Translations under genes and position numbers: made by a program
Source of the DNA: Chrysophaeum taylorii
Lineage: Eukaryota > Sar > Pelagophyceae > Pelagomonadales > Pelagomonadaceae
Length of the DNA stretch: 39,169 nt
Direction of reading: 5' to 3'
Assembly (NCBI GenBank): GCA_029834535.1
Contig: JAQMWT010000602.1
Coordinates: 1 to 39,169 of the forward strand
In this document: positions 1,481 to 32,484 of the stretch, piece after piece
Position numbering within the stretch: the stretch's first letter is position 1
Layout of the letters: each line of letters starts with the position of its first letter
The notes under the pieces: generated by a model
What the model saw: the letters and a program-made list of their open reading frames with translations, nothing else
Told to the model about the DNA's origin: nothing
Database searches by the model: none

Positions 1481-1813
1481 TGTGGCGTAAGGAGAATTTA
1501 GACCTACCTGGCGTGCCTTCGAATCCTAGCTCGCCGCTCGCGTCCGTGCCCTTGATGGAGTCACTGGACGAGGATGGCCGTTCTCCCGCCACACAACCAC
1601 AAACAACTTCCGTGCCTGGTCCTCGCAACTTGAGGATCGGCTGTTGCTTTATGATTAAGATATCATCGAAACACAGAAATCAGGGTGACACATGTCACGC
1701 AAAAGGAAGATGATGTCATAAAGAAAACTGACATCATCAGAGAGGAGTAGGGTGCCCCTGATAAGGGGGGCTAGAAGAGGGGTAAGCCTTAGGAGGCGGG
1801 AGTTGCCGCCACA
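1481..1813 (-). repeat. 3' LTR of the gypsy element (333 bp)
   Basis: Pairs with 11783-12123. Ends are TGTGGCG and CGCCACA, a perfect 7-bp terminal inverted repeat of the TG...CA type. Alignment by eye gives about 9 substitutions over 333 bp and a G tract of 6 here against 14 in the other copy, which fully accounts for the 8-bp length difference. Confidence 0.95.
1709..1738. promoter_or_regulatory. LTR palindrome with CRE-like half-sites
   Basis: GATGATGTCA and TGACATCATC form a perfect 10-bp inverted repeat around a 10-nt spacer. Just before it, GTGACA-CA-TGTCAC (1685-1698) is a second inverted pair. TGACATCA differs by one base from the classical bZIP CRE site TGACGTCA. The 10-bp arms are intact in the other LTR (12011-12040), as are the GTGACA/TGTCAC arms (11990-12003). 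A role as a transcription-factor site in U3 is inference. Confidence 0.45.
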
Positions 1814-1825
1814 GGACTCCCCTGG
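1814..1825 (-). other. Candidate polypurine tract
   Basis: In sense orientation the bases just before the 3' LTR read CCAGGGGAGTCC. They include the purine run AGGGGAG, in the place where plus-strand priming is expected. The run is short and followed by TCC, so this is a positional call only. Confidence 0.3.
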
Positions 1826-1853
1826 TAAGAATTCGAGCTGCCCCAGAGAGGTG

Positions 1854-2757
1854 CTAGCGCGAGGAGCGCGGCTTCGCCTTACGAGCATCTCGTGAACGAA
1901 TCTTCTGGTAAACGCGGGTGATGACCGGTTCAGGAACTCGGCCACTGCGCAAAGTAAACTTGGGGATCAACACATCAATCTCGTGAAGAGCGAAATCCGT
2001 GACACAAGGAGTTGTGTTGGAGGAAATCCTGGACTTGTCGGTGAAACTTCGACCTTCGACGTCCTTGAACTCGGGCTTGAGCTTGCGGTGCGAAAGGTGA
2101 GAGGTCGGCTTGAAATAAGCGACATCATCGTTCGGACCCAAATCGGAGTAGAAATGTAGAGCAACACGATCATTTTGGTAATCGTAAGGCTCGTAAACTT
2201 CAGCAACATAAATCTTCTTGCGCCAATCAGAGCGCTTCCGGCCAGGAATCCGGAAAAAAACAAACTTACCGCGCTGATAATCATCACGGAAGGTTTCTTC
2301 GGGTTTGCGGATGGTTTGATCGACGATCGGAGGTACCATCACAGGCGTGATCTGACTAACATGAACACGTCGTTCTTCGGGCGGAGAGTCGAGAGACTCA
2401 ATCCTATAGGTGACCGGGGAAAGGCGTTCCTCGATAATAAACGGGCAGCGCCATTCCGGTCGAAGTTTGTTCTGGAGGAAAGGAATGTAGAGCAAAACGT
2501 GCGATCCTTCCTTGTATTCAACATCAACATGATCGGCATTGTAGACCAATCGTTGTTTCTTTAAAGCTTTATCACGAGCCTCGCGGACGATCTTCGTATA
2601 ATACTTCAGTCGTTCACGAGTTTCAGCGACTGCATCAGAGCGAGTCTTCGGCAACAATCGCGTATCAAAGTCCATAAGCGTGTAATCAGTAGGTAACATC
2701 GGCTGACGGTTCAGGCGCAGCATAAAGGGAGAAATCTACGTGCCTGGAATAAACTTG
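1854..2757 (-). pseudogene. Gypsy integrase C-terminus: GPY/F module plus extra domain
   Basis: The - strand frame reads the end of the integrase (SPFMLRLNRQP), a helical stretch, then a GPY/F-like module (residues 72-112 counted from the ATG at 2723: GSHVLLYIPFLQNKL, then WRCPF and VTYRIE). A further 150-residue extension follows. Its segment 2058-2276 (FVFFRIPG...IYVAEVYEPY...VALHFYSDLG) alternates strands like a small beta barrel and could be a chromatin-binding module; I cannot name it. A TAG codon and a one-base frame change near 2735-2760 separate this frame from the integrase core, so translation is interrupted in this copy. Confidence 0.8.
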
Positions 2758-4546
2758 CGGTTATAACAAGCGCAATAGAATGGGCAAAGTCGGGCCAATC
2801 CGCGATGTTCCGGCCCTGAAGGCAAGCACGGAGGAAGGCCTTGATGAATCGGTTAACACGCTCAGCCGGGTTCGACTGGGCATGATAAGGAATCGTAGTT
2901 TGGTATCGTGTGTTGAAGAGATGGCAAAACTCGCGCATCAACTTGTTCACGAACTCTTTACCGTTGTCGGTACGAATCATCTGGGGCAAGTAGCCCTTGA
3001 GGAGGATGTTAATGACAAAAGACTCGAGGACAGACTCGGCAGTCTTATCGTTCAAAACACCCGGAATCAAGAAATGCGAGAACGGATCAAAAAATACTAG
3101 AAGATACGTCTCGGGACCAGCGCTGGGCAAAGGTCCGAATAAATCCATGCAAAGAACAGCACCATCACCATCGTAGACGGGCTGCTGCAAGAGTCCAGCT
3201 CGTTTCGGCTCCGGCGTACGAGCTTTCTGGCAAACTAAACATTCAGCAATGAAGACTCCAACTTCGTTCGACATGTGGGGCCACCAAAATCCTTCTTGGA
3301 TAGCCTGGACGGTACTGTGACGTCCCATATGACCGCCGTTAACCGGAGTGTCATGGTAGAGTCGAATAATGCGCTTTCGCAACGTAGCAGGTGCAACAAT
3401 CATCGGGTGCAAATCAGCAGAAATGCGGTAAAGAACGTATTTAACGAATTCGAATCGTTCGTTCGCTCGGGAACGTCGCGGCGTCTGACCTTGGGCCATT
3501 CGGTCGCGAATATCCTCGCAAGTAGCATCAGATTCTTGCTCACGTGCGATCTCAGCGAGCGTCATATTATCGGGTATCTTATCGATATAATCTTTGTAAG
3601 CGGCTGCGTCCTTGAAGATCTGTGGCTCATCGCGCGCACGGTTCTTCCGACGTTGTCTCGTAGCGTGAGACGTAGCCAGTTTCGTCGGATCCTTTTCAGG
3701 ATCTTCTTCCTCGTCTTCCGGCAGTTCGGTCGCAACAAACGACATTATGACGTGGCAGCAGGAGGCGGGAATTCCTTGGTCATCAACAGGTCGGGAAAGC
3801 TCTTGGAACACCAAATAAGCGTGGTTCAAATGTTCTCCAAACTCGTCAGTCTCGATGACATGATCTATCGGATTGCGGGAGAGACAGTCAGGGATACTCA
3901 TTCCCGGTGACTTTCCCGGCTTGTAACCAAGTTCAGGGTCAAAATTGGCGAGGCGCATCGCCCAACGAGCAAGCTGCCCAGACGAGTGCGTCGCCTTACG
4001 TAAAAACGTCAAATTTCGGTGATCGGTCTCCAAAACAGTCCGATGCCCTTCTATGTAGGCTCGAAAGTGCTCTAGAGAAAGTATAACTGCCAGCAGCTCT
4101 AACCGACGGGGCTCATAATTGCGCATCTCCTTCGGCACAGCTCGGCTCCAATATTCAATCACTCGTTCTTCTCGAGTCACTCTGCCGGCATCGTCCTTGA
4201 CTTCGACAATCTGGAAGAGATACGTTCCAAGTCCATCCTTGGAAGCATCTGATCGGATATGACAAGGCAGATCATAATCGGGGTGGTAGACTCCTCTGGA
4301 ATCAACCAAATCTTCAATAATCGTATCCCAGGCCTTTTGACACTCGGGCGTCCACTCGAACTTTACGCCTTCGAGGCATAATCGTCTCAGCGGTTCCACG
4401 ATCTTCGAGTAGCCCTTCACATATCGCCGGCAGTAATTACGCGTGCCGATGAAAGAGCGTATCTGGGTCTTCGGGGAAGTATTCGGCAAAGTACCTGGAA
4501 TCGGCATATTCTGTAGTGCTTCCAGCGTCTTCGGATTCGGCTTCAA
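2711..4546 (-). CDS. Gypsy RNase H and integrase core (open 611-codon frame)
   Basis: Starts as the RT thumb/connection (KPNPKTLEALQNMP, SFIGTRNYCRRYV), then RNase H with the four expected acidic residues: D100 in SDASKDG, E150 in RRLELLAV, D175 in LETDHRNL and D220 in IPDCLSR. An acidic, basic-rich spacer (residues 275-360) precedes the integrase zinc finger (H398, H406, C436, C439). The catalytic triad is D468 (CMDLFG), D527 (RTDNGKEF) and E562 (AERVNR), giving the classical D,D(35)E spacing. The frame carries every catalytic residue but lacks its RT start and integrase tail because of frameshifts at both ends. The product would cut RNA in hybrids and insert cDNA. Confidence 0.92.
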   Translation of the reverse strand: MKPNPKTLEALQNMPIPGTLPNTSPKTQIRSFIGTRNYCRRYVKGYSKIVEPLRRLCLEGVKFEWTPECQKAWDTIIEDLVDSRGVYHPDYDLPCHIRSDASKDGLGTYLFQIVEVKDDAGRVTREERVIEYWSRAVPKEMRNYEPRRLELLAVILSLEHFRAYIEGHRTVLETDHRNLTFLRKATHSSGQLARWAMRLANFDPELGYKPGKSPGMSIPDCLSRNPIDHVIETDEFGEHLNHAYLVFQELSRPVDDQGIPASCCHVIMSFVATELPEDEEEDPEKDPTKLATSHATRQRRKNRARDEPQIFKDAAAYKDYIDKIPDNMTLAEIAREQESDATCEDIRDRMAQGQTPRRSRANERFEFVKYVLYRISADLHPMIVAPATLRKRIIRLYHDTPVNGGHMGRHSTVQAIQEGFWWPHMSNEVGVFIAECLVCQKARTPEPKRAGLLQQPVYDGDGAVLCMDLFGPLPSAGPETYLLVFFDPFSHFLIPGVLNDKTAESVLESFVINILLKGYLPQMIRTDNGKEFVNKLMREFCHLFNTRYQTTIPYHAQSNPAERVNRFIKAFLRACLQGRNIADWPDFAHSIALVITASLFQARRFLPLCCA

Positions 4547-4549
4547 GCC

Positions 4550-5395
4550 TTCTGGGGTCGATATGTGTCCCAGAAAATCTATATCATCCTTGAGAAGGTG
4601 GAACTTCGCGGTTCGACCGCTGTACTCTCTGTGCCAAATGACACATAACTTCGATCAAAACTTGTAAATGTCGATGAAGATCGTCAGATCCCGTCATAAT
4701 ATCGTCAACAAACGCAACCAAGTCTCGATACATCCATTTCGAAAGGTCGCTCGCCATTTGCTTGCAGAAAGGAGCTCCGGCCGTCTTCACACCTAGAGGT
4801 AATCGCAAGAAACTATGAGCGCCAAGTGGGCCCAAGTGGGCTAACCATCGTGACAGCGTCTTGCGCTGCCGGATCCAGACGAAGGTTGTGGTATCCCCAT
4901 CTAATATCAATGCATGTCCGCCATCGTCGCATGGCGAGAAAAGCCAAAGCATCATCTTGTCGAATCTTCGGCCAACTGTCATTGACCAATTGATCGTTGA
5001 GCGGACGTAAGTCAAATGCAGCACGGAACGCGTTGGACGTTCCAATCTCAGCTCCTTTCTTGGGAAGCATCAATACAGGAAAGCCCCAAGGTGAGTTGGC
5101 CGGACGAATGACTCCCTCCCGGCACCACTCGCTGATCTGCTTGCGGAGACAATCGAGCTTCGCAGGCGTCAGTCGGTAGGGCGTCATCTTAATCGGTCGC
5201 GGATTCGCGTCTTTGAATCGTAGAGACACAGGAGGCGAGTCCACAGGTCTCATAGTCGGGTCGAAAAAGGCCCAAGAGTATTGCACACAGTGACGGAGCA
5301 TCAGTTTCGCATCGTCATCTAAGTGCGGATTGTCAGGAATTCCCAGCTCCTGAACAACCTTGTCAACTTCTTCCATCGTAGGAGTTTTCACTTTC
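4550..5395 (-). pseudogene. Gypsy reverse transcriptase, frameshifted
   Basis: The first frame (5395-4815) has VIRPANSPWGFPVLMLPKKG, FDLRPLND and the first catalytic Asp in CIDIRWGYHNL (residue 162 of the frame opening at 5391). The frame then shifts around 4830, where AAGTGGGC is tandemly repeated, into the 5045-4584 frame. This holds PLGVKTAGAPF and the YxDD-box variant FVDD at about 4701-4709. A second shift near 4625 leads to the RNase H frame. Family features are complete, so the loss of function is recent. Its N-terminus (KTPTMEEVDKVVQEL) was continuous with the linker at 5772 before the SINE entered. Confidence 0.9.
5385..5395. repeat. SINE target duplication, left (TTTTCACTTTC)
   Basis: An 11-bp perfect direct repeat with 5761-5771, flanking the SINE. 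Long, variable TSDs of this kind come from target-primed reverse transcription. Confidence 0.9.
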
Positions 5396-5760
5396 TAACT
5401 AACTAACTAACTTCAGACCTCTCCCGAGCATGGGAGCCAGGCCGGACCGACAGGTGCCAGTCCGGAATCACGGGCCTGTAGACGAGGAGCGCCGAAAGGT
5501 CGGTCGGCGGAGAGTGACCATCAAGCTTGTCGCCATGCGACGAGGAGACCGCGATGTGACTGACAACCAACTCGTCGATAACCTTCCGTCTTCGCCCCCC
5601 GGCCATACCCCGTCCCACTGCGAACGTTCCGGCTGCCAACCGGCCCGCCCGGGAGGCGAATAGGTGCCAACCTACGCCGGGAGGGCGGATGCCCTCGCAA
5701 GGCTCAGGATTCATGAGGCACCGTCCTCCATCGCAACCGCAGTCGGCGATCAGGGTAAGG
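5396..5760 (-). mobile_element. SINE-like element copy 1, inside the gypsy pol
   Basis: 365 bp. On the - strand it begins CCTTACCCTGATCGCC and ends GGTCTGAAGTTAGTTAG with a (GTTA)n tail, seen on + as TAACTAACTAAC at 5396. Just before the tail are two hairpins, CCGGAC...GTCCGG and CTCCC...GGGAG. It is nearly identical to 14163-14529 and 14748-15112 and has its own 11-bp TSD. It cuts pol exactly between the methyltransferase linker and RT. A 103-codon frame on its - strand (5403-5714) is open here and in copy 2, but GC-rich sequence opens several frames, so I do not call it a gene. Confidence 0.88.
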
Positions 5761-6199
5761 TTTTCACTTTCATCACTTCATTATCCTTGACATGCTCGGG
5801 AGTTTGCACCGGCGGTGCATCCTCAGCATCGCGCGGCGCATCTTTCCATGGCACATCGAACATCTTCTCGTATTTTAGTCTCACTTCCGGGTGGCTTTTT
5901 TTGACCCTCTCGCCTTTGACACGAACACTCGGCTCGCTCTTAATCTTCGGTTCCCGATCTCGCTCAGGATCTGGCGGAACGTCCAAATTTGGTTGTCGGG
6001 GGGGCCCAGCAGAAGAAGCGTGAGACGTCCCCGGCTCATCTGTTGCAGGCGGAATCAACGGCACCTCTGGAGGTTTCCATTTGGTGCGATCTTGGAGATC
6101 ATCAGTCGACACCCATCTTACGACACGTGTGCGCGTGTTTAAAAAGCGGAACTTGTACGTGACGAAGGGTGGTTTCATCGATATGCAAATAACAATCAA
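5761..6199 (-). pseudogene. Gypsy linker between methyltransferase and RT
   Basis: The open frame 6199-5750 contains YKFRFLNTRTRVVRWVSTDD at about 6110-6170, a short strand-rich stretch resembling a chromo or tudor-type barrel. A proline-rich, charged spacer follows, ending EHVKDNEVMKVK at the SINE border. The 5' end overlaps the methyltransferase frame (stop at 6102) in another register, so one frame change probably lies around 6200. 5761-5771 is the right copy of the SINE TSD. The barrel resemblance is by eye only. Confidence 0.55.
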
Positions 6200-7886
6200 A
6201 CGGTCGGTCTGCAGGACTCAACGCGGACGGCAATGTCTCACCGCTCAGGTGAAAATCCTTGGTCACAGAGTTGTGCATATCGAGTACTAATAAGGTCATC
6301 GTGTCTGGTGGCACGACGGACGCCAAGTGTTTCAACGAGGTCGTCCTGGAGAAGCCGGCCCAATCAAAATCAAGGGGCATTGTCCGCAACTCCGAAGTCA
6401 TTTTCAGATTCAAAGATCTGCAATCGGAACGGCGCGGTCCTACGCGAAGCGGAACACGCGTAACGGTATAAACTGCGTCTGTCGCGGCTCGTGATGATCC
6501 TAAATTGTTCATCTGAAGTAAATGTCGTTCGTCGGCGTAGCCAAGCGCAGCGGCGAACTCTTGTTGCATATTCTTGCAAGTCTTTGGAACTGCGCGCAAA
6601 TGGAGCGGATGGCTGGAAACCAACAACCGCACGCGACAGCTCATCAAACTGGGCGTTATGTCGTAAAATTTGACGACGTACACGGAAGGGTGCAAACGTG
6701 CAACGTAAGAAATAATCGAGGCCTCCTGCTCTATCAGCCACATGAAGAAACCAGCCATCTTGCATAATTTCATCGTCCAGTGGGTGGCGGTGACTCCCTT
6801 CCCAACATCCCTGGAAGTCAAGTTGCACAGAGCGGAGTGTACGCAGGGTGGCGACGCGATACACATCGACGACGACCATTCCGCGTAAGGTAAATAAGAT
6901 TCGATCAACCGTAAGGTTGTAACATAGCGACCACAAAGCGTGTGCTGCACCACAGGAATGTCCGGAAAATTCTTGCGGTGGATCTTGTTGGCGGTGTCCG
7001 ACGCATCGAGTGCTAGCACGACTCGAAACGACGTCCCACACATTTCGTTGGCTCGTTGGAGACCTAAAGTACTGCCTCCGGCTCCACTGAACAGCATCAC
7101 CACCTTGCGATAAGTGATCGGAAGCCATTGAACCTTTTCGTATCGTCGGCGGATCTCTGCATCGGTGATCTCGCGGCACTTCTTTTCATCTTCTTCCGAC
7201 CGACGAGCGACATCGTCGTCTCTTTTGGGTCGTTTGAGGGAGGACTTGTCCACAGCAGCGGCTGTAGCTTCCTTCTGCGCCGTGCTCAGCAACGTCGGCG
7301 GGGGGGATTCGTCGCAGCGCGTCAAATGACTAGCGACGGAAACGGTGAAAGAAAGGTTCCCCTTGTCGTATCCTTCTTCACATTCTTTCGTAAGCTCGTT
7401 GATCGTAGAGACGTTCAGCTCATCTTCGTACCGAACGATGTCGCCAATCGCGAGAACCTCGCCTTGAGTGATGACCGTCGGGACTTCTTCCACTGAAGTA
7501 ACCGCCACACGAGCAGCGGACCGGTCGTGCTCTTCGCAAGAAGAACACATCCCGTCGACAACTCCCAGCTGCTCGTTTTCAGCAAACGTAGCAACGAAAG
7601 CCTGTCCTTTTTCCATTGGCTTCGACAAAAGAACCGGTAGATTGTAAGTTCGACCGGGCTCGATTTGAAGCGTGCGCGCAGCGTAAGCAACTACTTCCCG
7701 CGCGGCTTCTCCCGGAGCTGGGGAGAATTTGGTCGTAGAATGTCCCCGCGTCGCCAAGGCTACCGCTCGTTCCGGCGGCGGGCTGCGGAGATCTTTAATC
7801 GTGCTCAAACGAGCGTAAACTCGAGTCTTGACCAGGTCGAGACTCTGCCGAAAGGCATCGTGTTGATGATTGTAAATCGGCACGGT
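6102..7886 (-). CDS. C5-cytosine DNA methyltransferase domain within gypsy pol
   Basis: A 593-codon frame, opening with GTG at 7883 just after a stop, so it is a polyprotein segment rather than a free-standing gene. Residues 70-150 form a beta-rich linker common between protease and RT in gypsy pol (IEPGRTYNLPV, VITQGEVLAIGDIV). Residues 215-255 are basic and acidic. Then come the C5-MTase motifs in order: I, LFSGAGGSTLGL (264-275), the SAM loop; II, LALDAS (290-295); IV, ASPPCVHS (343-350) with catalytic C347; VI, WLIEQE (382-387), where E385 replaces the ENV Glu; VIII, CRVRLLV (416-422); a short target-recognition region (425-495); IX-like ELRTMPLDFD (498-507); X-like SVVPPDTMTLLV (522-533). 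Expected reaction: SAM-dependent transfer of methyl to cytosine C5. Departures are PCV for PCQ, D for E in motif II, and C for Q in motif VIII. No stop occurs in the domain although neighbouring RT and IN frames are broken. Confidence 0.9.
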   Translation of the reverse strand, partial: TVPIYNHQHDAFRQSLDLVKTRVYARLSTIKDLRSPPPERAVALATRGHSTTKFSPAPGEAAREVVAYAARTLQIEPGRTYNLPVLLSKPMEKGQAFVATFAENEQLGVVDGMCSSCEEHDRSAARVAVTSVEEVPTVITQGEVLAIGDIVRYEDELNVSTINELTKECEEGYDKGNLSFTVSVASHLTRCDESPPPTLLSTAQKEATAAAVDKSSLKRPKRDDDVARRSEEDEKKCREITDAEIRRRYEKVQWLPITYRKVVMLFSGAGGSTLGLQRANEMCGTSFRVVLALDASDTANKIHRKNFPDIPVVQHTLCGRYVTTLRLIESYLPYAEWSSSMCIASPPCVHSALCNLTSRDVGKGVTATHWTMKLCKMAGFFMWLIEQEASIISYVARLHPSVYVVKFYDITPSLMSCRVRLLVSSHPLHLRAVPKTCKNMQQEFAAALGYADERHLLQMNNLGSSRAATDAVYTVTRVPLRVGPRRSDCRSLNLKMTSELRTMPLDFDWAGFSRTTSLKHLASVVPPDTMTLLVLDMHNSVTKDFHLSGETLPSALSPADRPFDCYLHIDETTLRHVQVPLFKHAHTCRKMGVD

Positions 7887-9126
7887 TTACCGGGTCTCGA
7901 TCGTAAACAGATCGAAAGGTCACAATGGGTGCATCGACTCGTTCGCCCTTGACTTTAATCTTCTTGCGGCCGTAGACGACGTGGGTTCGATAAAAACAGA
8001 TCCGATCGTGGGGGTAGTCCACGACGGCTCCTAAAACTCGGATATCGCGCCCTCCCAACAGGAACAGATAGTTGGCGTCGGCCACAATAGCGACAATGGG
8101 GGCAGCGATGTCGTCGGCGAGGGCGACCCGGATCGCGATCCAACGATAAATCGTCGTCGTGTTCAACCCCGATTCGTACAGCTTGCGCTTAATCGGAACC
8201 TCGCCTTCATCGGAAATCAACTTATCTTTGGCCAACTTTCTGACAATATCGCGGCAAATATAAGAAACATCTGCCATTCCATCGACACCGATGGTCGTCG
8301 AGAATTTCGGTCCGTCACGATTCCTGTCGATGTGACAGGCCATAAACGTAAGAGTACCCGTATCCAAACAACTCAGGGTAACCAAATCATCTTGGATCGT
8401 CTTGCCATCTCGCGGCGTCAACGCAGTGTGAGCACATTGGGCTCTGACTCGCTCATCGCCGGGGTTGGGCATCGACACCGCGGCTTGAGCTTTCGTATCA
8501 TCTAATGTCGGCGTCATCGACGCAGCGCTCGCGGCAGCCTGTTTATCTGGCGGCTTCCGCTCTTCTTCCATGACTATCTCGGAGGGAATCAGTGCTGGTA
8601 GGGGATCCCGACCTTCGTTATTCTCGGAAGCAAATGACGTCTCCCATAACTCATTCATTTCGTCGTTGCAGAATGCATCCGTAGATTCATTCGTCGTCGG
8701 TTGATCATCACCATCATCGGCGATTGGTTCCGTGTCGGCTGCGGCTTCGAGTCCGTAGCTGAGCGGTTGTTCTGGCGGCTTCTTTAGCAAGAAGTTCCGA
8801 GTTCTCGTCCACCAATCCTGCAGGTTCCACGTCGGCTCGTCTTCGTCCCAATCGAGAACGTTGCTAATCTTCTTCTTAAATCTATCCTTCTCTTCCGGCG
8901 GCGTATCCGTGGCTCGATCCGTCGTAACCGAAACCGTTTCGGGGGGGTCCGCAGGAAAAGATGGCGTCGTCCCCGACGTTAACTCTATCGTAAGATCGTC
9001 GTCTGCATCACTCGTGATGGTCATCGTCTCATCCGTCGAATGATCATCCGTGCTATCGCTGCAGAAATCCATGTCTGGCTCACAGCCAGTCCGGTCGCTA
9101 AAGGTCGTCTCTGGAGGGTCCAAAGA
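7795..9126 (-). CDS. Gypsy protease-like region with acidic N-terminal half
   Basis: A frame of about 442 codons. Residues 1-220 are acidic and low-complexity (repeated DDD, TTNESTD, SGTTPSFPADPPE). Residues 270-380 look like a retropepsin: IGVDGMADVSYI (278-289) takes the place of the usual LxDSGAxxxFI, and YLFLLGGRDIRVLGAVVDY (352-370) matches the family's C-terminal ILGxDxLxxxxAxID segment. The active site would be D281 with GM in place of S/T-G. A DTG at 254-256 is an alternative. The frame ends at a TAA (7795-7797) and overlaps the methyltransferase frame by about 90 nt in the +1 register. It starts after an in-frame TAA at 9127-9129. Confidence 0.65.
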   Translation of the reverse strand, partial: SLDPPETTFSDRTGCEPDMDFCSDSTDDHSTDETMTITSDADDDLTIELTSGTTPSFPADPPETVSVTTDRATDTPPEEKDRFKKKISNVLDWDEDEPTWNLQDWWTRTRNFLLKKPPEQPLSYGLEAAADTEPIADDGDDQPTTNESTDAFCNDEMNELWETSFASENNEGRDPLPALIPSEIVMEEERKPPDKQAAASAASMTPTLDDTKAQAAVSMPNPGDERVRAQCAHTALTPRDGKTIQDDLVTLSCLDTGTLTFMACHIDRNRDGPKFSTTIGVDGMADVSYICRDIVRKLAKDKLISDEGEVPIKRKLYESGLNTTTIYRWIAIRVALADDIAAPIVAIVADANYLFLLGGRDIRVLGAVVDYPHDRICFYRTHVVYGRKKIKVKGERVDAPIVTFRSVYDRDPVNRADLQSSTRCLSAESRPGQDSSLRSFEHD

Positions 9127-10546
9127 TTAGCCGATAGCGTCGAGGGCTTCCTCGTCAAAAACAAACGGTGGGTCGTCCGTGGACGACTCGTCAAGTAACG
9201 TAATCGCGGACACTGGTTCACAAGGTGTAGCTTCTTCGTCTTCCGAGTCTGAATCGCCTTCCCAGTATCGTGGAGCTTCGAGTTCATTGCTCGACATCTC
9301 CTCATAAATCTGTGCCAAAGACCGACGATCGGTCAGCACTTCGTTGGGTGGCTCGTCCGTCGGCGGGCGAGCACGATCGTCGAATGCGGCCGCGGCAAGG
9401 GCGTCGGCTGTGCGTCGTCGGGGCGGGTGTCCGTGTTCGGGTACACCATCACTCCTAATGGTAACTGTTGACCGCAAGGGGTCGTAAACGCGAGCGTAGC
9501 GCTCAAAAAACCCAATTTATATTGGTGTCGGCCTCCGTCGTATTCGTCGTCGCGCGATCGGCGTCGTCTGTGCCGGCGCGAACTTCGACTGGGGCTCTTG
9601 TTATCTTTGTCTCTCTCTGGCGTCAGTTCGGCAGGTCCTAGTACCTCTGGATCGTCCCTGTAGGCGACTGGTGCCCCCAAGCCTATCCGAACTGTCTCAA
9701 TCGTCTCGTCTATCGAAACATCGACACATGCGTCGTCTTCTTGCCAAAACTCCGACCAAACGTAAATTAACTCTCCGTTGGCGAATAAATCCAAGCCTCG
9801 GGTCGGAATCGCACTTCTTTCCGCTCTGGCGGTTTCTTCCTCAGGAAACAGTGGGCTCGTATCCATATCGTCGGGACGCTCATCTTCCTCTTATCCATGC
9901 TGGTCGTCCAATCCAAATTCGATTCTGGGCGGTAGCCGTACTCATCCCTCATAGTCTGTTCGGGATCCTTCTTTATCACATAGCCAGCATCATATGCAGG
10001 CTGAAAACCTTTGAACTCTTCGTTCGTGAGTAATACGCCAGGGCTTTCACAGAGCTCCAAAGGCGGTTCATATATTATAAGGTTCTTCACCTCTTCCGCT
10101 TTCGTATTCATTTTCTCGGCCGTTTCACTCGGCCTATCATCCACTCCATCGCTTAGAATATCGGCAATCGCCTCGTAACTAAAAATGTCGGCACACGAAA
10201 TGTCTGCCATCGTCAAACGGAATAAGACATCTGCACAAACGTCTGCAAAAACGTCTGTAATCCGTTCGTCGGGGGGTCCTGCAAAAGAAGAAGGCGTCGT
10301 CCCCGACGTCATATCGGTCAAGAAATGGTCACCAAAGGGCACGTGACGTTCGATGGGCGTGTAAACAGGTGCTCGCTTATCACTCGAGATAATCCTCAGC
10401 GACGCATCGTCGGTCGATCGTGGAGACGAAGTGACGTCCACTTGAATGTCCGGAGGTAGACTCATAGCATCGAGCGTAGCAGCGGCGGGTCCATTCCTTT
10501 GGGCGTCATCGGCTGCACGGGGCTCGTAAATCGGATTCAAACTTAA
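9127..10546 (-). pseudogene. Gypsy gag-pro acidic region, broken frames
   Basis: Three frames in succession: 10546-9767, 9866-9333 and 9477-9127. The first shares modules with the protease frame (SGTTPSSFAGPPDE against SGTTPSFPADPPE, and FLRKKPPE against FLLKKPPE), suggesting an internal duplication. The second contains an arginine/serine-rich stretch (SPSRSSRRHRRRRSRDDE), perhaps RNA-binding. No CCHC zinc knuckle is visible. Frame changes and an in-frame TAG at 10547-10549 break the reading. Assignment to gag or gag-pro is by position between PBS and protease. Confidence 0.55.
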
Positions 10547-11757
10547 CTACGGCGCGTCGTCTAAACCAAGGGCTGTGTCAGCTGACGACGAATCATATCG
10601 TGCCACCAACGGTGACACCGGGTCAGAAGCGGTTGTTGGCTTCGGCCCGTAATTTAACGACGCTTCGGTCAGATTCTCCGATCCTGTGGGGATTTTGGTT
10701 TGGGTGAGCTCATTCGACTTGGATTGCTCTTGCTCGTAGTTTAGCGACGTTTCTGTCAACTCGGACGACTCGTCGTCGTCGTCGCGCGGCTTCCTAACTT
10801 TCGCTCGCGTTCGCGTGGGCGGCGGTACCTCCGAGGGTCGGAATTCTCCCTCCAGAGTGCTCGCTCGCCTCGAGCGACTCGGCGGACGCAATTCATCCCT
10901 CTCACGGGTCAACCATCGTACTTGCTCGTGTATTTTATCTAATCGAGCGTGTTCGTGCCGCATTTGCTCTTGCATTATTTTTATCTTCTTCTGGTGTAGC
11001 CATTCACGCCGTATCTCTTTTTCTTCTATCAGCTGGATGAGGATTTCTTGTGCGCGCTTATTTTCTCGGCGTATCTCGCGTAACTGGGCTTTGTAAATCT
11101 TTGCAACGTTCGGTGGTTCATCATCTCGCGCACGTTCTGGATGGGCTGCCGGTTGTCTCGCCGGCGGCGCCCTCGGCGGTTCATCGCCGCTGTAGTTCAG
11201 CTCTCCTTCCTCATCATCATCATCAGCATCATCATCATCGTTCCCCTCGCTCGTCTCATCCTGCCGGCTTGGCGGTTCGTCATATCGCATCTGCTCGTCG
11301 GTAGCATCGTCGTCTTCCATATCGGCTCTGGCTCGTTCTAATCGGCCGAGATCAGAGCGGGTCCAAAATGGTTGAGTCGTCGTCGTTCTCGTGCTCCTTC
11401 GACTCTGGGACTTCTACTCGTCCACGACACGCGTAATATCGTCGTCGCGTGCGTCTTCCACCGACCGATCTATCAGTCCGGTGGGCGGCAGAATTCGTCT
11501 CTGCCCGGCAATCAATGCCACAGTGAGTTGCGATCTCACTCCGCTCGCCTGCGGCAGCGGTACCCGGGTTGCGCGTCGGCTAGAACCGAATCGCGCGTCG
11601 TCACTTCCGACGACTAGCGTATCCGGCCGGGGAACTTTCCCACGGCAGTGGTCCTTCTGGAATTCCTTGTCGGCGCGCTTGATCAGGGCGCGCACGGCTT
11701 GTCCGGACCGTGTAGAGAATGCAAGATGCACTCGTTCGCTGCGACCGACATGGTCGC
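10547..11757 (-). pseudogene. Gypsy gag-like ORF with coiled coil
   Basis: Two stretches in the same register separated by one in-frame TAG at 11414-11416. The upstream one, 11757-11417, is Arg/Ser-rich. The downstream one, 11320-10550, has a run of about 12 acidic residues and then a long charged helix, about 11110-10900 (KIYKAQLREIRRENKRAQE, then RHEHARLDKIHEQVRWL), predicted as a coiled coil. Its tail repeats SLNYE/SLNYG. Position just after the primer binding site and the self-association helix suggest a capsid or gag role; no family was recognised and no zinc knuckle is present. Confidence 0.5.
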
Positions 11758-11780
11758 TCGAATCTCGTATTCCTCCACCA
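11758..11780 (-). other. tRNA primer binding site
   Basis: Two bases inside the 5' LTR. The + strand here ends CGTATTCCTCCACCA, preceded by TCGAATCT, the order of a tRNA T-loop, acceptor strand and CCA end. The - strand is therefore complementary to about 20 nt of a tRNA 3' end. I cannot say which tRNA; the acceptor strand would begin GGAGGAA. Confidence 0.7.
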
Positions 11781-11782
11781 CG

Positions 11783-12123
11783 TGTGGCGTAAGGAGAATT
11801 TAGGCCTACCTGGAGTGCCTTCGAATCCTGGCTCGCCGCTCGCGTCCGTGCCCTTGATGGAGTCACTGGACGAGGATGGCCGTTCTCCCGCCACACAACC
11901 ACAAACAACTTCCGTGCCCGGTCCTCACAACTTGAGGATCGGCTGTTGCTTTATGATTAAGATATTATCGAAACACAGAAATCAGGGTGACACATGTCAC
12001 GGAAAAGGAAGATGATGTCATAAAGAAAACTGACATCATCAGAATGGAGTAGGGTGCCCCTGATAAGGGGGGGGGGGGGGCTAGAAGAGGGGTAAGCCTT
12101 AGGAGGCGGGAGTTGCCGCCACA
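11783..12123 (-). repeat. 5' LTR of the gypsy element (341 bp)
   Basis: Partner of 1481-1813; it drives transcription leftward. Contains the same palindromes (11990-12003 and 12011-12040), an AT-rich stretch near 11950-11970 that could serve as a TATA region in sense orientation, and a run of 14 G at 12067-12080. Confidence 0.95.
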
Positions 12124-12128
12124 ATAAT
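12124..12128. repeat. Target site duplication ATAAT, right copy
   Basis: Matches 1476-1480. Copia coding sequence resumes immediately after it. Confidence 0.9.
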
Positions 12129-14549
12129 GGCGCTTCTTATGGTGCCTCCGAGCCTCATATCTCCGCCATCGAAGACTATATCACCGTGCAATCGCATTAC
12201 ATTGAGGCCCACCTTGGTGATGCTCCTCTACTAGTTGTTCAAGTCGTCGAAGATTCCGATCACACTCATCTGCACGATAATGTCGCTTCTTACGCAATTA
12301 CTCATCTGACGACGACTCATGACCCCAGCACGGTTGGTTCGGACGAGTACAAGATTCAAGCCAAAGATATCAAAATTGATGAATATGAGTTGAGCTGCCT
12401 CAAAGGTCTCTCAGACGCTGATCGCAAAGCTTATGTTGCTGCCATCTCCAAGGATATTTTTGATATTGTTAAGTTTGGCTGCTTTAAACTAGCGCTGCCA
12501 GTGGTCAACTCAAAGCCGATTGACACCCGTCTCGTCCTACGTATAAAACCCAACGCTGCTGGTCAGTACATTAAACATAAAGCACGCCTGGTACTACGAG
12601 GATTCTTAGCCTCTCTGGGCACCGATTTCTTCAACACATTCAGCCCTATGGCACAGCTTACCGGCATCCGTTGTGTTCTGGCGCTAGCAGCTCATCTGCG
12701 ACTTCCAGTCTACCATGTCGACGTCCCTAACGCTTTTGTTCAAGCTCCCATCGATTCTCATGTCTATGTCAAACTGCCACAAGGCATTTACCTTCTTGAT
12801 CCCGAAGACACTAAATACCAAGGCCGTCGTCTCCCAAAGCTACTTAAATCTCTCTATGGATTACGTCAGAGCCCTGCCTTTTGGAATCAAACCATAAACG
12901 GCTTCTCTGATTCATTAGGCTATACACGATTTCGAACAGACACATGCATTTACGCTAAAGTCCAAGCTGACGCTACATTTCTAATCTGCACACTCTCAGT
13001 AGACGACGTCGTCATTACTTGCACTTCGGAAACTCTACGTCGTGAGTTCCAGCAAGCCCTGAAAAAGGAATACTCAGTCGACACCTTCGAGGAAGTCCAT
13101 ACTCTCCTAGGCATGCGCATAACACGTACTACTGATGGTTCCATCTCACTTGACTGTCAAGCTAAACTTGATACATTGTTTGAAGAGTACCCATTCTAAT
13201 GCAGTTACGTGCTACCTCTACACCGATGTCACCATCAACCACTTATAAAACTGGAGAGCCATCTTCTGATATGGACAAGTTCATCCTTCACACCTTCTCT
13301 ACTCTACTCGGCAAGCTCACGTTTGTCCAATTGGCCTGTCGCCCCGATCTATCACAAAGTCTTAGTCGTTGTTCTCGAGGAATGCATAATCCAGCATTTC
13401 TACATGTTCAAGTACTAACAGGAACGCTCCGCTACTTGCGCAAGCCCGAAAATTGTAGTCTTCGTCTCTGGTAATACTCTGGTTCGTCCGCTCTAATGGA
13501 CCATCTTCGACTTCTTATCGGTAATCGTACTGACATGGCCACCATGTTGGATTACACTAAAGAACAAGTAAATTCAGGTAATTTTGATCCACTGGTCGCG
13601 TTCGTATATGCCGATAATGCACCCTCTTATGAACAAGACCGCAAATCTACAACCGGTTACGCTATCTTTTTGTTTGGTTCTCTCATCACTTGGAAGTCTA
13701 AGTTGCAGCCTATTACAGCTACTTCTACGCATGAGAGTGAGCTTATCGCCCTTAATATGTGTGCCGATGATGTGGTCTGGTTACGCAAATTGTTAACAGA
13801 AATGGCATTCGCTATAAATCCTCACTTCTATCTCCGCCAACCTTCAGGGAAAGACTTGCTACTAGATTATGATGCTCATGACAATCCCCTCCCATCGGAC
13901 ATGTCGTTCATACGTAACAGTCCTATACTGGGAGACTCTGCCTCTGCTATTCATCTTCCCAACAATCCCGACAGTGCGACTAAGGCCAAAGCTATCAGCA
14001 CACGCTGGTTCCGTATTCGCGACTACGTACAGTTAAAACATATACGTATACATCATGTTTCCGGTACCCAAAATATCGCCGATGGATTTACTAAACCCTT
14101 TGGAGCTCCGCTCTTCAGTAGATTTCGCACTTTACTCGGCTTACAACAACCCATAGCTCAACTAACTAACTAACTAACTTCATACCTCTCCCGAGCATGG
14201 GAGCCAGGCCGGACCGACAGGAGCCAGTCCGGAATCACGGGCCTGTAGACGAGGAGCGCCGAAAGGTCGGTCGGCGGAGAGTGACCATCAAGCTTGTCGC
14301 CATGCGACGAGGAGACCGCGATGTGGCTGACAACCAACTCGTCGATAACCTTCCGTCTTCGCCCCCCGGCCATACCCCGTCCCACTGCGAACGTTCCGGC
14401 TGCCAACCGGCCCGCCCGGGAGGCGAATAGGTGCCAACCTGCGCTGGGAGGGCGGATGCCCTCGCAAGGCTCAGGATTCATGAGGCACCGTCCTCCATCG
14501 CAACCGCAGTCGGCGATCAGGGTAAGGGGTAGCTCAACAAGATGGTTAA
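12129..14549 (+). pseudogene. Ty1/copia pol remnant, part 2: RT and RNase H
   Basis: Frame 12186-13199 is a copia-type RT (RVT_2). It shows the KARLVLRGF and FSPMAQL segments, VDVPNAFVQAPID with the first catalytic Asp, KLPQGI, LLKSLYGLRQSPAFWN, and the catalytic box SVDD (13000-13011) where YVDD is usual. A 2-nt insertion at 13197 shifts the frame to 13199-13474, a stop interrupts at 13472-13474, and 13496 onward is copia RNase H (FVYADNAPSYEQDRKSTTGY, TATSTHESELIAL, then ISTRWFRIRDYV and HHVSGTQNIADGFTKP). The native stop would be TAA at 14547-14549; SINE copy 2 entered 10 nt before it. Strong family match, dead copy. Confidence 0.92.
14163..14529 (-). mobile_element. SINE-like element copy 2
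   Basis: About 365 bp, nearly identical to copy 1, with its (GTTA)n tail at the left border. TSD TAGCTCAAC at 14154-14162 and 14530-14538. It interrupts the last codons of the copia pol. Confidence 0.87.
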
Positions 14550-14747
14550 TCCTTACCCTTCATTATGTCCGAAACGACATTAAACTAACCCTACAATGCA
14601 AAGGAATACTGACTCGCTAAAATGTGAAATGCAATGAAAAATGTGATGTGGATATTCTTTTCACGATGAATCCCACTAAAAACTAAGATGCTGCGATCCG
14701 GCGCCATTCTACCCTGAACCGTGGTCGTGGTGGTGCACTGTCACTAT
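14550..14747 (+). other. Short spacer between copia pol and the downstream ORF
   Basis: About 200 bp, AT-richer than the flanking SINEs. In the register of the downstream ORF there is a TAA near 14687; after it the frame is open (HSTLNRGRGG) up to the SINE, so coding potential of the downstream gene may begin here. I see no LTR or other signal. 14735-14747 is the left TSD of SINE copy 3. Confidence 0.4.
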
Positions 14748-15112
14748 AACTCACTAACTAACTTCAGACCTCTCCCGAGCATGGGAGCCAGGCCGGACCG
14801 ACAGGAGCCAGTCCGGAATCACGGGCCTCTAGACGAGGGGCGCCGAAAGGTGGGTCGGCGGAGAGTGATCATCAAGCTTGTCGCCATGCGACGAGGAGAC
14901 CGCGATGTGACTGACAACCAACTCGTCGATAACCTTCCGTCTGCGCCCCCGGCCATACCCCGTCCCACTGCGAACGTTCCGGCTGCCAACCGGCCCGCCC
15001 GAGAGGCGAATAGGTGCCAACCTACGCCGGGAGGGCGGATGCCCTCGCAAGGCTCAGGATTCATGAGGCACCGTCCTCCATCGCAACCATGCGGTCGGCG
15101 ATCAGGGTAAGG
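14748..15112 (-). mobile_element. SINE-like element copy 3
   Basis: 365 bp with its tail at the left and a perfect 13-bp TSD (GCACTGTCACTAT at 14735-14747 and 15113-15125). It lies in the 5' part of the accessory ORF. Slightly diverged from copies 1 and 2 (for example CGGGCCTCTAGACGAGG). Confidence 0.9.
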
Positions 15113-20845: not shown

Positions 20846-21975
20846 TCCTAACTACTAATCGACAGATGTTTGTCTGTCTGTTTGTTTGTCTGTTTGTCTG
20901 TCTTTAAATGTCGACTGCTAAGAGGGGGGGGTGTGTGTGTCCCTCGATTTAGGGTAAGGATCAGGTAGGCGCGAGAGTAAGGATCAGGTAGTCGCGAGAG
21001 CCAGACAGTGATCCTCCAAGCCGTCTACGGCGACCTCGCAGACTATTTCCACGACCCGCGGCGGCTCTGTTTCCACGACCCGCGGCGGCTCTTTTAGCCA
21101 GCGCGCCATTCTCACGCCCCGTCGAAACGATGTTGTCGATGGTGACAACGCGCGCATGACCGCGGCCTTTTCTTCCCGGAGACGAGGCGTCGGAGTTCTT
21201 TTTGGCAGACTAGGTTGGGTCGGAAGACGACGCCTCGCTCTTTACAGTCGAGTTTTCGACTCCCTGACAACCAACGGCATGCTGGCTTTGAGCGCGAGCT
21301 TAAGGTCTTCGCAACCTCGACCCGTCGCACGGCCACTGCAACGGTACCAGATACATGATCGATCGTGTCGTGTCACCGAGGCTCCTCCAACCTGTATCCC
21401 TTAAGGCCCGCCGACGCCAAACGATCACCAAGAGCCAGGGCCAGACGCCCCGCGAGGTCGGCGTCCTCTCGCCCAAGCCCGTCTTCTGTCACGTCCAGCT
21501 CTACGTGGCTCTCTGTCGATCGGCAACCCCGGGATATGCTCTTCTGAGTCGACGACTCCACCCTACCCCACACGTGCTACGCAATACCTATAAGCCCCCT
21601 CCCGGCGTCTACACGCGCACTGTAAGTGAACTTACTGGGACCAGGTGAGCTTACTGGAACCAGGTGAACTTGCGGAGGTTAGAGATTGGGACTAGGTGAA
21701 ATTAGTGACCAGGCGAACTTACTGAGACCAAGTGAACTTACTGGGGTTTTTAGAGTAAACTCAAAGGTTAGCGGCGTGTGCGGATCAAAGCAGCTTAGAT
21801 TGGCGGGGGTGAGAGCGACGAGTTCAAAGGAGAGTGGGGTGAGTGGATGTGAGCACGAGTGGGTTTACGCCGAATTTACTGGGGTTAGAGATTGGGACTA
21901 GGTGAACTTAACGCGTCCAGGTGAACTTACTGGGGTTAGAGATTGGGAGTAGGTGAACTTACTGGCCTGCGCTTG
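20846..21975 (+). mobile_element. Helitron copy A with helicase C-terminal remnant
   Basis: Begins TCCTAACTACTAATCGACAG and ends GGCCTGCGCTTG, like the copies at 24138-25972 and 36441-37688. Its broken frames encode the last part of a PIF1-type helicase (ILTPRRNDVVD region near 21110-21145, CNGTRY region near 21335, TITKSQGQTP at 21422-21451, LYVAL near 21506), as in Helitron RepHel proteins. The 3' end holds repeats of GGTGAACTTACTGG (about 21625-21975). No Rep domain is present, so it is non-autonomous or truncated. Confidence 0.8.
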
Positions 21976-21993
21976 TTCCCCTTTAATATATAA

Positions 21994-23157
21994 CAGCGTT
22001 GTGCATTTACTAAATCAGTTTAGTAATGTAACGAGCATTACTTACCACACCTTTTGAGTAAAGTAATTCGCAAAGTAAAAGTCGAGCATTACAGCCGGGT
22101 GCCGCGTAAAGTAAAGGTAAAGACTGCTCGGGCTGAAAATTTAATTTTGCCGTATTTCTGTTCTGGCCCCAACCTCGTGCAGGGACGGAGCACTACGCAA
22201 CGATGTGATGAGCGGACTCGCTTGCTTTTAATGGTTAATCGTCGTGGTTAATCGTCTCGTCTCCTTTGTAGGGGAATGATCTCGGACTTGAACTCGAACT
22301 TCTTGAGGATGTGGCCGTACTTGTCTCGAGCCCACTTAATAAACTCCTTGTTCATGCGCAGGGTCACGAGCATGTCCAGCTCCTCGTCGCTCAGGAGGGT
22401 GTTGCCCTCAGTCATGACGATGTTGGCAGCTGAGATGATGCGCTCGCAGAAGCTCTCAGCAGGCAGCGCGCCGATATTGCCCTTCGAGACTCGTGCAATG
22501 TCTCGAAGGTAGCCGTACTCCTGGTTGCCTTCTATTCGCGTGTAGAGCTTGCCGACGTTGAGCAACATCATGTCCAAGAGCTTACGATCCTGGATGAGTC
22601 GGAGGAATCCGAGAGGTCGTCAGGAAACTCCTTGAGCCACTCGATGGTGCGAGCGTACTGGATCCGCTTCATGAAGACGCGTTCGAACTCCACCTTGAAG
22701 TCCGGCATCGCCTCCTCCGATTAATCAGGTTGCTGCTGCTCTTCGGGCTGAGGAATGGCTTCGGCCCAGCAGTCGGGCTCGATGTCGCCATCGTCATCTG
22801 AGTCGGATGCCGGCGCAGTCGTATGAAGGCGTTGCCGTCCTCCTCCTCACCGTCGTCATTAGTACCACCCTCGATCTCATCCTCCATGTTGTGGCATGCC
22901 ATCGGAGGCGACTGCTCCGCTTCGGCCGGCCTGGCCGTCGCATGCGGGGTCCGTAACGCAGACATCGTCTACAGACCCCGCCACGTCGCTCAAAACGACT
23001 CGTCGACATGGGTGACGTACGGATGTAGTAATGTAAAAAAATTACTTTACCATCATTTTGAAACGACTGTAAAGTAATGGTAAAGTAAAGTAAAATAGAT
23101 AAAGTAAAGGAATTTCGTAATGTTTTTTACTAACGTTTGAGTAAATGCACAACGCTG
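21994..23157 (-). mobile_element. hAT transposon, internally deleted
   Basis: 1,164 bp with perfect 18-bp terminal inverted repeats CAGCGTTGTGCATTTACT (21994-22011 and inverted at 23140-23157). Flanks ATATATAA and ATTTATAA match at 7 of 8 bases, fitting the 8-bp hAT duplication. Subterminal AT-rich repeats GTAAAGTAA occur at both ends. The interior keeps a transposase C-terminus. Confidence 0.88.
22248..22720 (-). pseudogene. hAT transposase C-terminal dimerisation region
   Basis: The - strand frame 22577-22248 encodes ESFCERIISAANIVMTEGNT, then LSDEELDMLVTLRMNKEFI. This is the layout of the hAT C-terminal dimerisation domain (P-x-S-x-ER-x-FS, then L-x-L-x-x-N). The preceding segment (22710-22580, DFKVEFERVFMKRIQYART) is in another register, so a frameshift lies near 22580. 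The catalytic core is missing. Confidence 0.75.
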
Positions 23158-23216
23158 ATTTATAATGTTGTCATAAGAATTAGCCTTACCTGTAGTACCA
23201 AATTAAGTCATCGGCG

Positions 23217-23225
23217 CTTAATTTA
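23217..23225. repeat. MULE 2 target duplication, left (CTTAATTTA)
   Basis: Matches CTTAATACA at 30435-30443 in 7 of 9 bases; the length fits a MULE. The mismatches suggest age. Confidence 0.6.
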
Positions 23226-23523
23226 GGGTAAATGTCACATCGCTGGTTCTTGAGGTCACATCACTCGTACCAAGGGTACATCACTGGTTCCTTTATTTTC
23301 TCGGGTCACATCACTGACTCCTTACCCACATCACTTGCCCTAATAATAAATAAGACATATCACTCGTCCTCTCGGGTCAGATCACTCGTTCCAGGACGGA
23401 GCTCCGGAGCGACACGAAAAAACGGTCACAACACTCGTTCTTAGAAACAAGTAATGTGGCCCTGCTTGCCGAAGGCGGAACCAGTGATGAGACCCGAAGG
23501 TTGACCAGGATTTTTTATGGGTA

Positions 23524-23853
23524 ATGGTCACGTCACGGGTTATTTCAAATACTTCTTGTATCTTGATGCCCGCCGACGGGCCACGGCGGTGCGCGCCTGT
23601 GTTACCAACGCAATGGATGTTGCGAACGGCCGACGGGCCTGGTGAGTTGCTCGTGCCAGCAGATGTGTATTTCATTTTGTGGCATGTGGCGAGGCTCGAC
23701 TGCTCTTCGGGGCAATTGCGCCGCGCCGTGACAATAGACGCGGAGGCTCGGCCTGCCCCGGTGCCCCGCGGCCCTCGCCGGGACTCTGCTCGGTCCATTC
23801 GCCAGAACCAAAAAAGTAGGCTCCTACCCCATCTTCCATGTACTATAAGTTAG
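23524..23853 (+). CDS. Small ORF of unknown function in MULE 2
   Basis: A 109-codon frame on the + strand, opposite in direction to the transposase. It contains MPADGPRRCAPVLPTQW and a short hydrophobic stretch (VYFILWHVARL). No family recognised; it may be a second MULE product or chance. Confidence 0.25.
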   Translation: MVTSRVISNTSCILMPADGPRRCAPVLPTQWMLRTADGPGELLVPADVYFILWHVARLDCSSGQLRRAVTIDAEARPAPVPRGPRRDSARSIRQNQKSRLLPHLPCTIS

Positions 23854-25435: not shown

Positions 25436-25645
25436 TAACTAACTAACTAACTTCAGACCTCTCCCGAGCATGGGAGCCAGTCCGGACCGACAGATGCCAG
25501 TCCGGAATCACGGGCCTGTAGACGAGGAGCGCCGAAAGGTCGGTCGGCGGAGAGTGACCATCAAGCTTGTCGCCATGCGACGAGGAGACCGCGATGTGAC
25601 TGACAACCAACTCGACGATAACCTTCCGTCTTCGCCCCCCGGCCA
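25436..25645 (-). mobile_element. SINE-like element copy 5, 5'-truncated
   Basis: Tail at left (TAACTAACTAAC), subfamily 1 sequence up to CCCCCCGGCCA. Flanked by CAGGC at 25431-25435 and 25646-25650. Confidence 0.8.
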
Positions 25646-25650
25646 CAGGC

Positions 25651-25817
25651 TAACTAACTAACTAACTTCAGACCTCTCCCGAGCATGGGAGCCAGGCCGG
25701 ACCGACAGGAGCCAGTCCGGAATCACGGGCCTGTAGACGAGGAGTGCCGAAAGGCCGGTCGGCGGAGAGTGACCATCAATCGCCATGCGACGAGGAGACC
25801 GCGATGTGACTGACAAC
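25651..25817 (-). mobile_element. SINE-like element copy 6, 5'-truncated
   Basis: Immediately follows copy 5, sharing the CAGGC between them, with CAGGC again at 25818-25822. It lacks 7 internal bases (AGCTTGT) present in other copies. Two insertions used one target site inside Helitron B. Confidence 0.8.
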
Positions 25818-32433: not shown

Positions 32434-32484
32434 AAAACCCGCTCTGTCACTAAGCCGCCGTAGCGAAGCAGCCGTGACTTGGCG

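Follow-up and report, generated by a model that had tools for sequence, protein, structure and literature searches.

A C5-methyltransferase domain within a Ty3/gypsy pol frame

Contig JAQMWT010000602.1 of the pelagophyte Chrysophaeum taylorii (39,169 nt, analysed over its whole length and here called the window) includes a Ty3/gypsy long terminal repeat (LTR) retrotransposon, here named family A, that carries a captured enzyme domain. We confirmed that positions 6138–7139 encode a C5-cytosine methyltransferase (MTase) domain that is full-length and divergent; it continues the frame of the protease-side linker and is placed between this linker and the reverse transcriptase (RT). The open frame (6102–7886, minus strand, 594 codons) comprises a linker, which accounts for approximately the first 250 residues, and then the MTase. 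A first-pass annotation made from the sequence alone had placed a complete C5-MTase in one open frame of a Ty3 pol, between protease and RT, and the location was borne out by a match to Pfam profile PF00145 and by RT, RNase H and integrase domains downstream. The domain and its motifs are:

6138–7139, minus strand: C5-cytosine MTase domain, 334 aa (Pfam, profiles, selection, fold, alignment)
7062–7103, minus strand: motif I, VVMLFSGAGGSTLG (alignment of 10 copies)
6843–6851, minus strand: motif IV, PPC, with the catalytic Cys codon at 6843–6845 (invariant in 10/10 copies)
6723–6731, minus strand: motif VI, EQE replacing ENV (invariant in 10/10 copies)
6627–6635, minus strand: motif VIII, RVR, with RxR retained and Gln lost (both Arg invariant in 10/10 copies)
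6303–6413, minus strand: motifs IX–X, LNLKMTSELRTMPLDFDW ... HLASVVPPD (PF00145-profile alignment; alignment with database C5-MTases)

When the whole 594-residue frame was compared with PF00145, a check that the first-pass annotation had proposed for residues 255–540, it scored 21.3 bits (E = 2e-4; cut-off 22 bits), and the domain cut out of the frame scored 22.9 bits. The match in the window spans motifs I–III only. All of the aligned domain-cut copies matched PF00145 (10/10 at E ≤ 0.1), the best at 6.4e-10. A profile built from 11 database PF00145 proteins gave 60 bits against the window frame, a score that is inflated because the 11 proteins were chosen by their similarity to the family A MTase. 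The 230 residues that follow motif IV scored 6.9 bits, whereas none of 1000 shuffles of the same stretch exceeded 4.6 bits, and the copy at locus L041 scored 12.1 bits. As the whole frame, shuffled 200 times, reached 7.8 bits once, the C-terminal score is modest when taken alone.

The order of the motifs (I, IV Cys, VI Glu, VIII Arg, IX–X), which had been read from the window sequence, was confirmed in the alignment of 10 copies and with the 11 database proteins. In the 10 copies, which represent four subgroups, FxGAGGSxLG, the motif II Asp, SPPC, EQE, RxR, TVTR and S-x-V-P of motif X are invariant. The domain resembles the PF00145 enzymes M.HhaI, DNMT1, DNMT2 and DNMT5 in motif order and predicted fold, and differs from them where the canonical ENV, QxRxR and GN residues have been replaced, by EQE in motif VI, by RxR without the Gln in motif VIII and by Ser for Asn in motif X. 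The earlier description of the MTase as complete needs qualifying at these residues. The replacements weaken the claim that this is a typical enzyme, but not that it belongs to this fold family. They bear out the earlier suggestion of a distinct clade with divergent catalytic surroundings, and are a clade-wide feature rather than the decay of a single copy.

For an AlphaFold2 model of the MTase, of modest quality, the 50 structures listed as matches were without exception C5-MTase-type enzymes, which supports a C5-MTase fold. No DNMT3 chain was among these 50 structures or among the Protein Data Bank (PDB) matches of the family profile up to E 10, and no DNMT2 chain was among the latter. In a PDB search with the single sequence, three of the four best matches were DNMT2, but these were weak (E 0.11–0.58) and covered motifs I–IV only. 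A fold prediction from the single sequence was set aside (predicted local distance difference test score of 33).

Word-based searches of a collection of 5.8 billion proteins returned one match at E 7.6e-4, to a tandem C5-MTase, and a further search with the family A MTase, in which 8000 candidates were scored, returned 11 matches at E 1.1–7.6, all of them (11/11) PF00145 proteins. Among the candidates scored, none was closely related to the EQE clade, and scans of viral contigs for the source of the capture gave no relative. An overlapping 271-codon frame inside the MTase (6370–7185) was considered and rejected; it is 270 codons long in L005 and 200 in L002, but the longest in L041 is only 78.

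Structure of the family A element

The element that carries the MTase comprises:

1481–12123, minus strand: Ty3/gypsy LTR retrotransposon copy, family A (LTR pair, target site duplication (TSD), RT, RNase H and integrase domains, co-linear with locus L039)
11783–12123, minus strand: 5' LTR, 341 bp (LTR alignment)
1481–1813, minus strand: 3' LTR, 333 bp (LTR alignment)
1476–1480: TSD ATAAT, left
12124–12128: TSD ATAAT, right
11764–11780, minus strand: candidate primer-binding site, beginning TGG, 2 nt inside of the 5' LTR (read from the sequence)
7888–11413, minus strand: gag-side upstream and protease-like part in several broken frames (tblastn of the L039 frame; position and motif)
7140–7886, minus strand: post-protease linker, approximately 250 residues, in the same frame as the MTase (open reading frame)
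5395–5694: dispersed repeat of approximately 300 bp, between MTase and RT; the L039-like frame picks up again at 5394
1854–5394, minus strand: RT, RNase H, H2C2 zinc-binding and rve integrase domains in broken frames (Pfam; tblastn of the L039 frame)

The LTRs share 95.0% identity including gaps (9 mismatches and 8 gap positions), the element has TG...CA ends, and the 5 bp ATAAT duplication is present on both flanks; the first-pass annotation had noted intact LTRs and a TSD. Pfam matches to RVT_1 (weak, E 6.5e-4), RT_RNaseH, Integrase_H2C2 and rve are in the order found in Ty3. The LTR pair, the TSD and the order protease–RT–RNase H–integrase (rve) are those of Ty3/gypsy elements, with the protease recognized only by its position and a retropepsin-like motif, DGMAD, near 8268; no gag or protease Pfam match was found in 7888–11413. 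An exact-pattern search found no host tRNA matching the candidate primer-binding site.

The canonical retropepsin motif is D-S/T-G, and the protease-like motifs seen here are unusual: DGMAD in family A and its sister family A2 (in the window and at L049, respectively) and DGGAS in a further family, B (L044).

The single frame of L039 matched the window copy in nine co-linear pieces, with the frame changing between pieces. The stretch from MTase to RT is longer in the window copy by approximately 367 bases, which lie just upstream of the RT domain and include the dispersed repeat. The window copy is a dead element, broken outside the MTase, whose frame happens to have stayed intact.

Spread, descent and selection

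The genome searched comprises 70.8 Mb in 697 contigs. The window protein gave 77 matches, which represent at least 74 family A loci after pieces were joined, and a sister Ty3 family, A2, gave 117 matches at no fewer than 105 loci, none of which overlap those of family A. These counts are lower bounds (74/1271 and 108/950 candidates were scored) and some matches are partial. Together, the two families account for at least 179 loci with whole or partial matches. Across the deepest split, between A and A2, the MTases share 36–39% identity and occupy the same place in the element; in L040, PF00145, RVT_1 and RNase H are found in a single frame. In the copies read, the position of the MTase in the pol frame is fixed; the first-pass annotation had asked whether further copies always have the domain flanked by protease and RT.

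When the RT was used to search the genome, 100 matches were listed, all with at least 90% identity. An MTase was listed upstream in 31 of these and none was listed for 69. An MTase-less subfamily was considered for the latter and rejected: three of the 69 were read and the domain was present in all three, and the apparent gap at these loci therefore reflects candidates that were left unscored.

Three loci from the list of RNase H matches (150 entries) were read. L049 contains a complete A2 MTase, L050 contains at least the C-terminal part of the MTase in frame, and L048 lacks the MTase but is 98% identical to L049 on either side of a 1.1 kb deletion. The exact deletion junction of L048 was found at four loci, L048 included (L063–L066; L048), which are mutually 97.7–98.8% identical over their aligned parts, and a fifth match had two mismatches. 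The enzyme-less A2 derivative has therefore either multiplied or been duplicated. The first-pass annotation had considered that domain-less copies with clean junctions might reveal a one-off insertion. Instead, L048 arose by deletion from an MTase-bearing element, and the seemingly MTase-less RT copies that were read (3/3) carry the domain.

The Ty3-borne MTase is under strong purifying selection, with its catalytic residues invariant. By the Nei–Gojobori method, the ratio of non-synonymous to synonymous divergence (dN/dS) for the MTase is 0.08 between the window and L041 and 0.06 between L039 and L041, at dS 1.4–1.7, and 0.12–0.25 in close family A pairs; comparisons with L042, which has frame breaks in the MTase, were excluded (dN/dS 0.16–0.57). 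For A2 the values are 0.09–0.13 at dS 0.12–1.5, excluding the pair L051–L054 (dS 0.01, dN/dS 1.02). Overall, the MTase has a dN/dS of 0.06–0.13 at dS 0.4–1.7. The linker preceding the MTase has a dN/dS of 0.15–0.25 and the RT 0.03–0.04; the MTase therefore evolves faster than the RT. RT and MTase rank the groups in the same way, which fits a single old capture followed by joint descent.

A second C5-MTase in a Ty1/copia family

When the genome was searched with PF00145, 57 matches were returned (123/474 candidates scored), of which 55 are of one type, family B, with 65–100% identity over the aligned part and at least 55 loci; 28 of these 55 were also translated. At L044, a single frame of 1952 codons includes the DGGAS motif followed by PF00145 (residues 349–475, E 1.1e-7), rve (residues 1016–1110, E 0.006, 17.2 bits, below the cut-off of 32.6) and RVT_2 (residues 1686–1933, E 1.6e-38). 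The integrase upstream of RVT_2 is the Ty1/copia arrangement, and the MTase, in which PCQ and ENV motifs are present, lies between protease and integrase. PF00145 was matched by 7/7 family B copies, and the seven PDB matches up to E 10 were 8yf3 and M.HhaI variants (E 0.05–0.18). The family B MTase is under purifying selection, with a dN/dS of 0.08–0.22 in 15 pairs. A protein search, also with 8000 candidates scored, gave no match up to E 10 among them. A further stretch of approximately 300 residues lies between MTase and integrase in L043 and L044 (contigs C582 and C96).

Families A and B are alike in having a C5-MTase after the protease, and differ in that B belongs to the Ty1/copia superfamily and has PCQ and ENV, whereas A is a Ty3 family and has EQE. 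No similarity between the two MTases was detectable (hhalign probabilities of 1.2% and 0.1%), which means that no relation can be detected, not that separate origins are proven.

Relation to known systems

Besides those in the elements, the MTase genes among the PF00145 matches listed are DNMT2-like (L009, E 3.9e-39 to chain 1g55, a DNMT2) and DNMT5-like (L010, E 3e-143 to 7r76; entry 7r78 bears the title DNMT5). Those listed include neither a DNMT1 nor a DNMT3, though intron-split or low-scoring genes could escape this search. One SRA-domain match was found in the genome.

Published retroelement MTases include DNMT3s in gypsy and DIRS elements and orphan DNMTs in LINEs (de Mendoza et al. 2018, PMC5890265). 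Closest in arrangement is KnitGypsy-Dnmt3 of Klebsormidium nitens, where a DNMT3-related MTase lies inside the gypsy Pol; it too belongs to the LTR gypsy elements, encodes its C5-MTase within the Pol frame, is present in several copies and is under purifying selection (PMC5890265). KnitGypsy-Dnmt3 is described as having a DIRS-like repeat structure, whereas family A has an ordinary LTR pair and TSD, LFSGAGG (a motif I that contrasts with that of DNMT3), PPC and EQE motifs, and its host has, among the matches listed, only DNMT5- and DNMT2-like genes besides the element MTases. SymbioDIRS-Dnmt3 and SymbioLINE-Dnmt of Symbiodinium are likewise retroelements with C5-MTases, and the SymbioLINE enzymes, as that of family A, form an orphan DNMT lineage. 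However, DIRS elements use a tyrosine recombinase and SymbioLINEs carry the enzyme in ORF1 (PMC5890265). The window element has an rve integrase and ordinary LTRs in place of a tyrosine recombinase and DIRS-type repeats. Orchid Ty3/Gypsy elements have also captured a nucleic-acid-modifying enzyme, in that case an AlkB-type m6A RNA demethylase (an eraser) in an extra ORF rather than an MTase inside pol (PMC9289625).

No description of a non-DNMT3 gypsy MTase or of a copia element with a C5-MTase was found in literature titles and abstracts, a search outside which most subscription papers lie. In a 2025 paper, 'LTR Copia' is named in one sentence on DNMT3 members that cites the 2018 study (PMC12344493). 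As the PDB profile matches and the fold comparison revealed no special affinity to DNMT3, the capture in family A is probably independent of the published cases. The first-pass annotation had proposed a further, perhaps independent capture between protease and RT; the placement is confirmed, and independence stands as probable. These findings suggest that retroelements have acquired C5-MTases repeatedly, outside the dinoflagellate and charophyte already reported as well, and that both LTR superfamilies (Ty3 and Ty1) of a single genome have done so, with the enzyme placed after the protease in each.

Possible roles of the MTase

We put at about even the chances that the captured C5-MTase has been kept by Ty3/gypsy elements as a working part of the polyprotein that methylates the element's own cDNA or new insertion. 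A Ty3/gypsy lineage would long ago have captured the domain between protease and RT and retained it in this capacity. The MTase, predicted to be active, would be packaged together with RT and integrase and might methylate the fresh cDNA or new insertion de novo, by analogy with the DIRS-borne DNMT3s of Symbiodinium, which are described as performing CG methylation de novo in yeast (PMC5890265). Such a mark would be short-lived, or would fall in a sequence context from which few CpG mutations result. The likeliest benefit would be that the incoming DNA resembles host DNA, or that silencing of the new copy is influenced.

Several observations weigh against this explanation. Three canonical residues are changed: Asn in motif VI, Gln in motif VIII and Asn in motif X. 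For CpG, the family A element has an observed/expected ratio of 1.30, and the whole window 1.18. Pointing the other way are the lower value in the 5' LTR alone (0.71, where GpC is 0.79) and the ratios of 0.98 in L049 (A2), 0.98 in L043 and 1.03 in L044 (both B), which are below those of the host-gene loci L009 (1.26) and L010 (1.46). Transitions per site in family A, counted from eight non-independent pairs that share members, are 0.048 at CpG, 0.038 at CpA, 0.039 at CpC and 0.061 at CpT. The corresponding values are 0.036, 0.028, 0.036 and 0.046 in A2b and 0.070, 0.042, 0.057 and 0.077 in B. CpG transitions exceed those at CpA in all three, which likewise points towards CpG methylation, but in family A they are raised at most slightly. 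Neither CpG loss nor CpG transitions in families A, A2b and B gave a clear footprint of CpG methylation, and the evidence for lasting CpG marking is mostly negative; for the earlier idea of self-methylation as a means of evading or steering host silencing, no direct support was obtained here. In addition, one exact deletion junction at four loci means that the MTase may be dispensable in cis. The natural MTase-deleted copies provide a built-in comparison for testing the enzyme's role.

Separately, C/T changes are commonest in the CpT context in A, A2b and B.

Action in trans, on host chromatin or silencing loci, would alter defence or the integration landscape rather than mark the element's own cDNA. 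MTase-less derivatives at four loci fit a shareable product, and the host DNMT5-like enzyme and the SRA-domain match could maintain or read CpG methylation, but fusion in pol between protease and RT favours packaging with the cDNA, and we regard this as unlikely. An RNA target, either the genomic RNA of the element or its primer tRNA, methylated in the manner of DNMT2, is quite unlikely. The weak DNMT2 matches of the single sequence, the lack of a clear CpG footprint and a SymbioLINE DNMT that is reported not to methylate DNA in yeast and for which an RNA role has been proposed (PMC5890265) are consistent with it. However, the DNMT2 matches are limited to motifs I–IV and disappear when the family profile is used. 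Loss of catalysis, with the domain retained in pol to bind DNA or serve as a scaffold, would account for the change of ENV to EQE, the missing motif VIII Gln and motif X Asn and the faster evolution of the MTase relative to RT; with the catalytic Cys, the motif VI Glu and both motif VIII Arg invariant in 10/10 copies, it seems improbable.

A broader proposal, which we consider a long shot, is that retrotransposons are the main source of de novo cytosine methylation in this genome. Only DNMT5-like and DNMT2-like genes were found besides the element enzymes among the matches listed, and Ty3 and Ty1 elements each have a C5-MTase. The element's enzyme would methylate new copies before they insert, and the host DNMT5, described as a maintenance enzyme (PMC10538959), would perpetuate the mark, so that the parasite writes and the host copies. 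A host with a DNMT5-like gene and an SRA match, and no DNMT3 match among those listed, offers a direct test of parasite-supplied de novo methylation.

That the similarity is due to chance, or that a fragment of a host gene was inserted just once, is refuted by the occurrence at 179 or more loci, purifying selection, 10/10 Pfam matches and the fold match; what might speak for it are the whole-frame Pfam score just under the cut-off and the one whole-frame shuffle that outscored the C-terminal part.

Other features of the window

An RVT_2 and RNase H-like frame of a Ty1/copia element (12124–14173) is the antisense neighbour of the family A element, which seems to have inserted into it. The RT of this neighbour is 33% identical to that of family B. 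The dispersed repeat of approximately 300 bp is present in four copies in the window (5395–5694, 14162–14461, 14746–15045 and 25435–25734). Large inverted and direct repeats, roughly 85–99% alike, are common to 20974–25286 and 36698–37719. Read by eye only, the open frame at 32464–33876 is DnaJ-like, with CxxCxGxG repeats and a hydrophobic N-terminal stretch resembling a signal or transit peptide.
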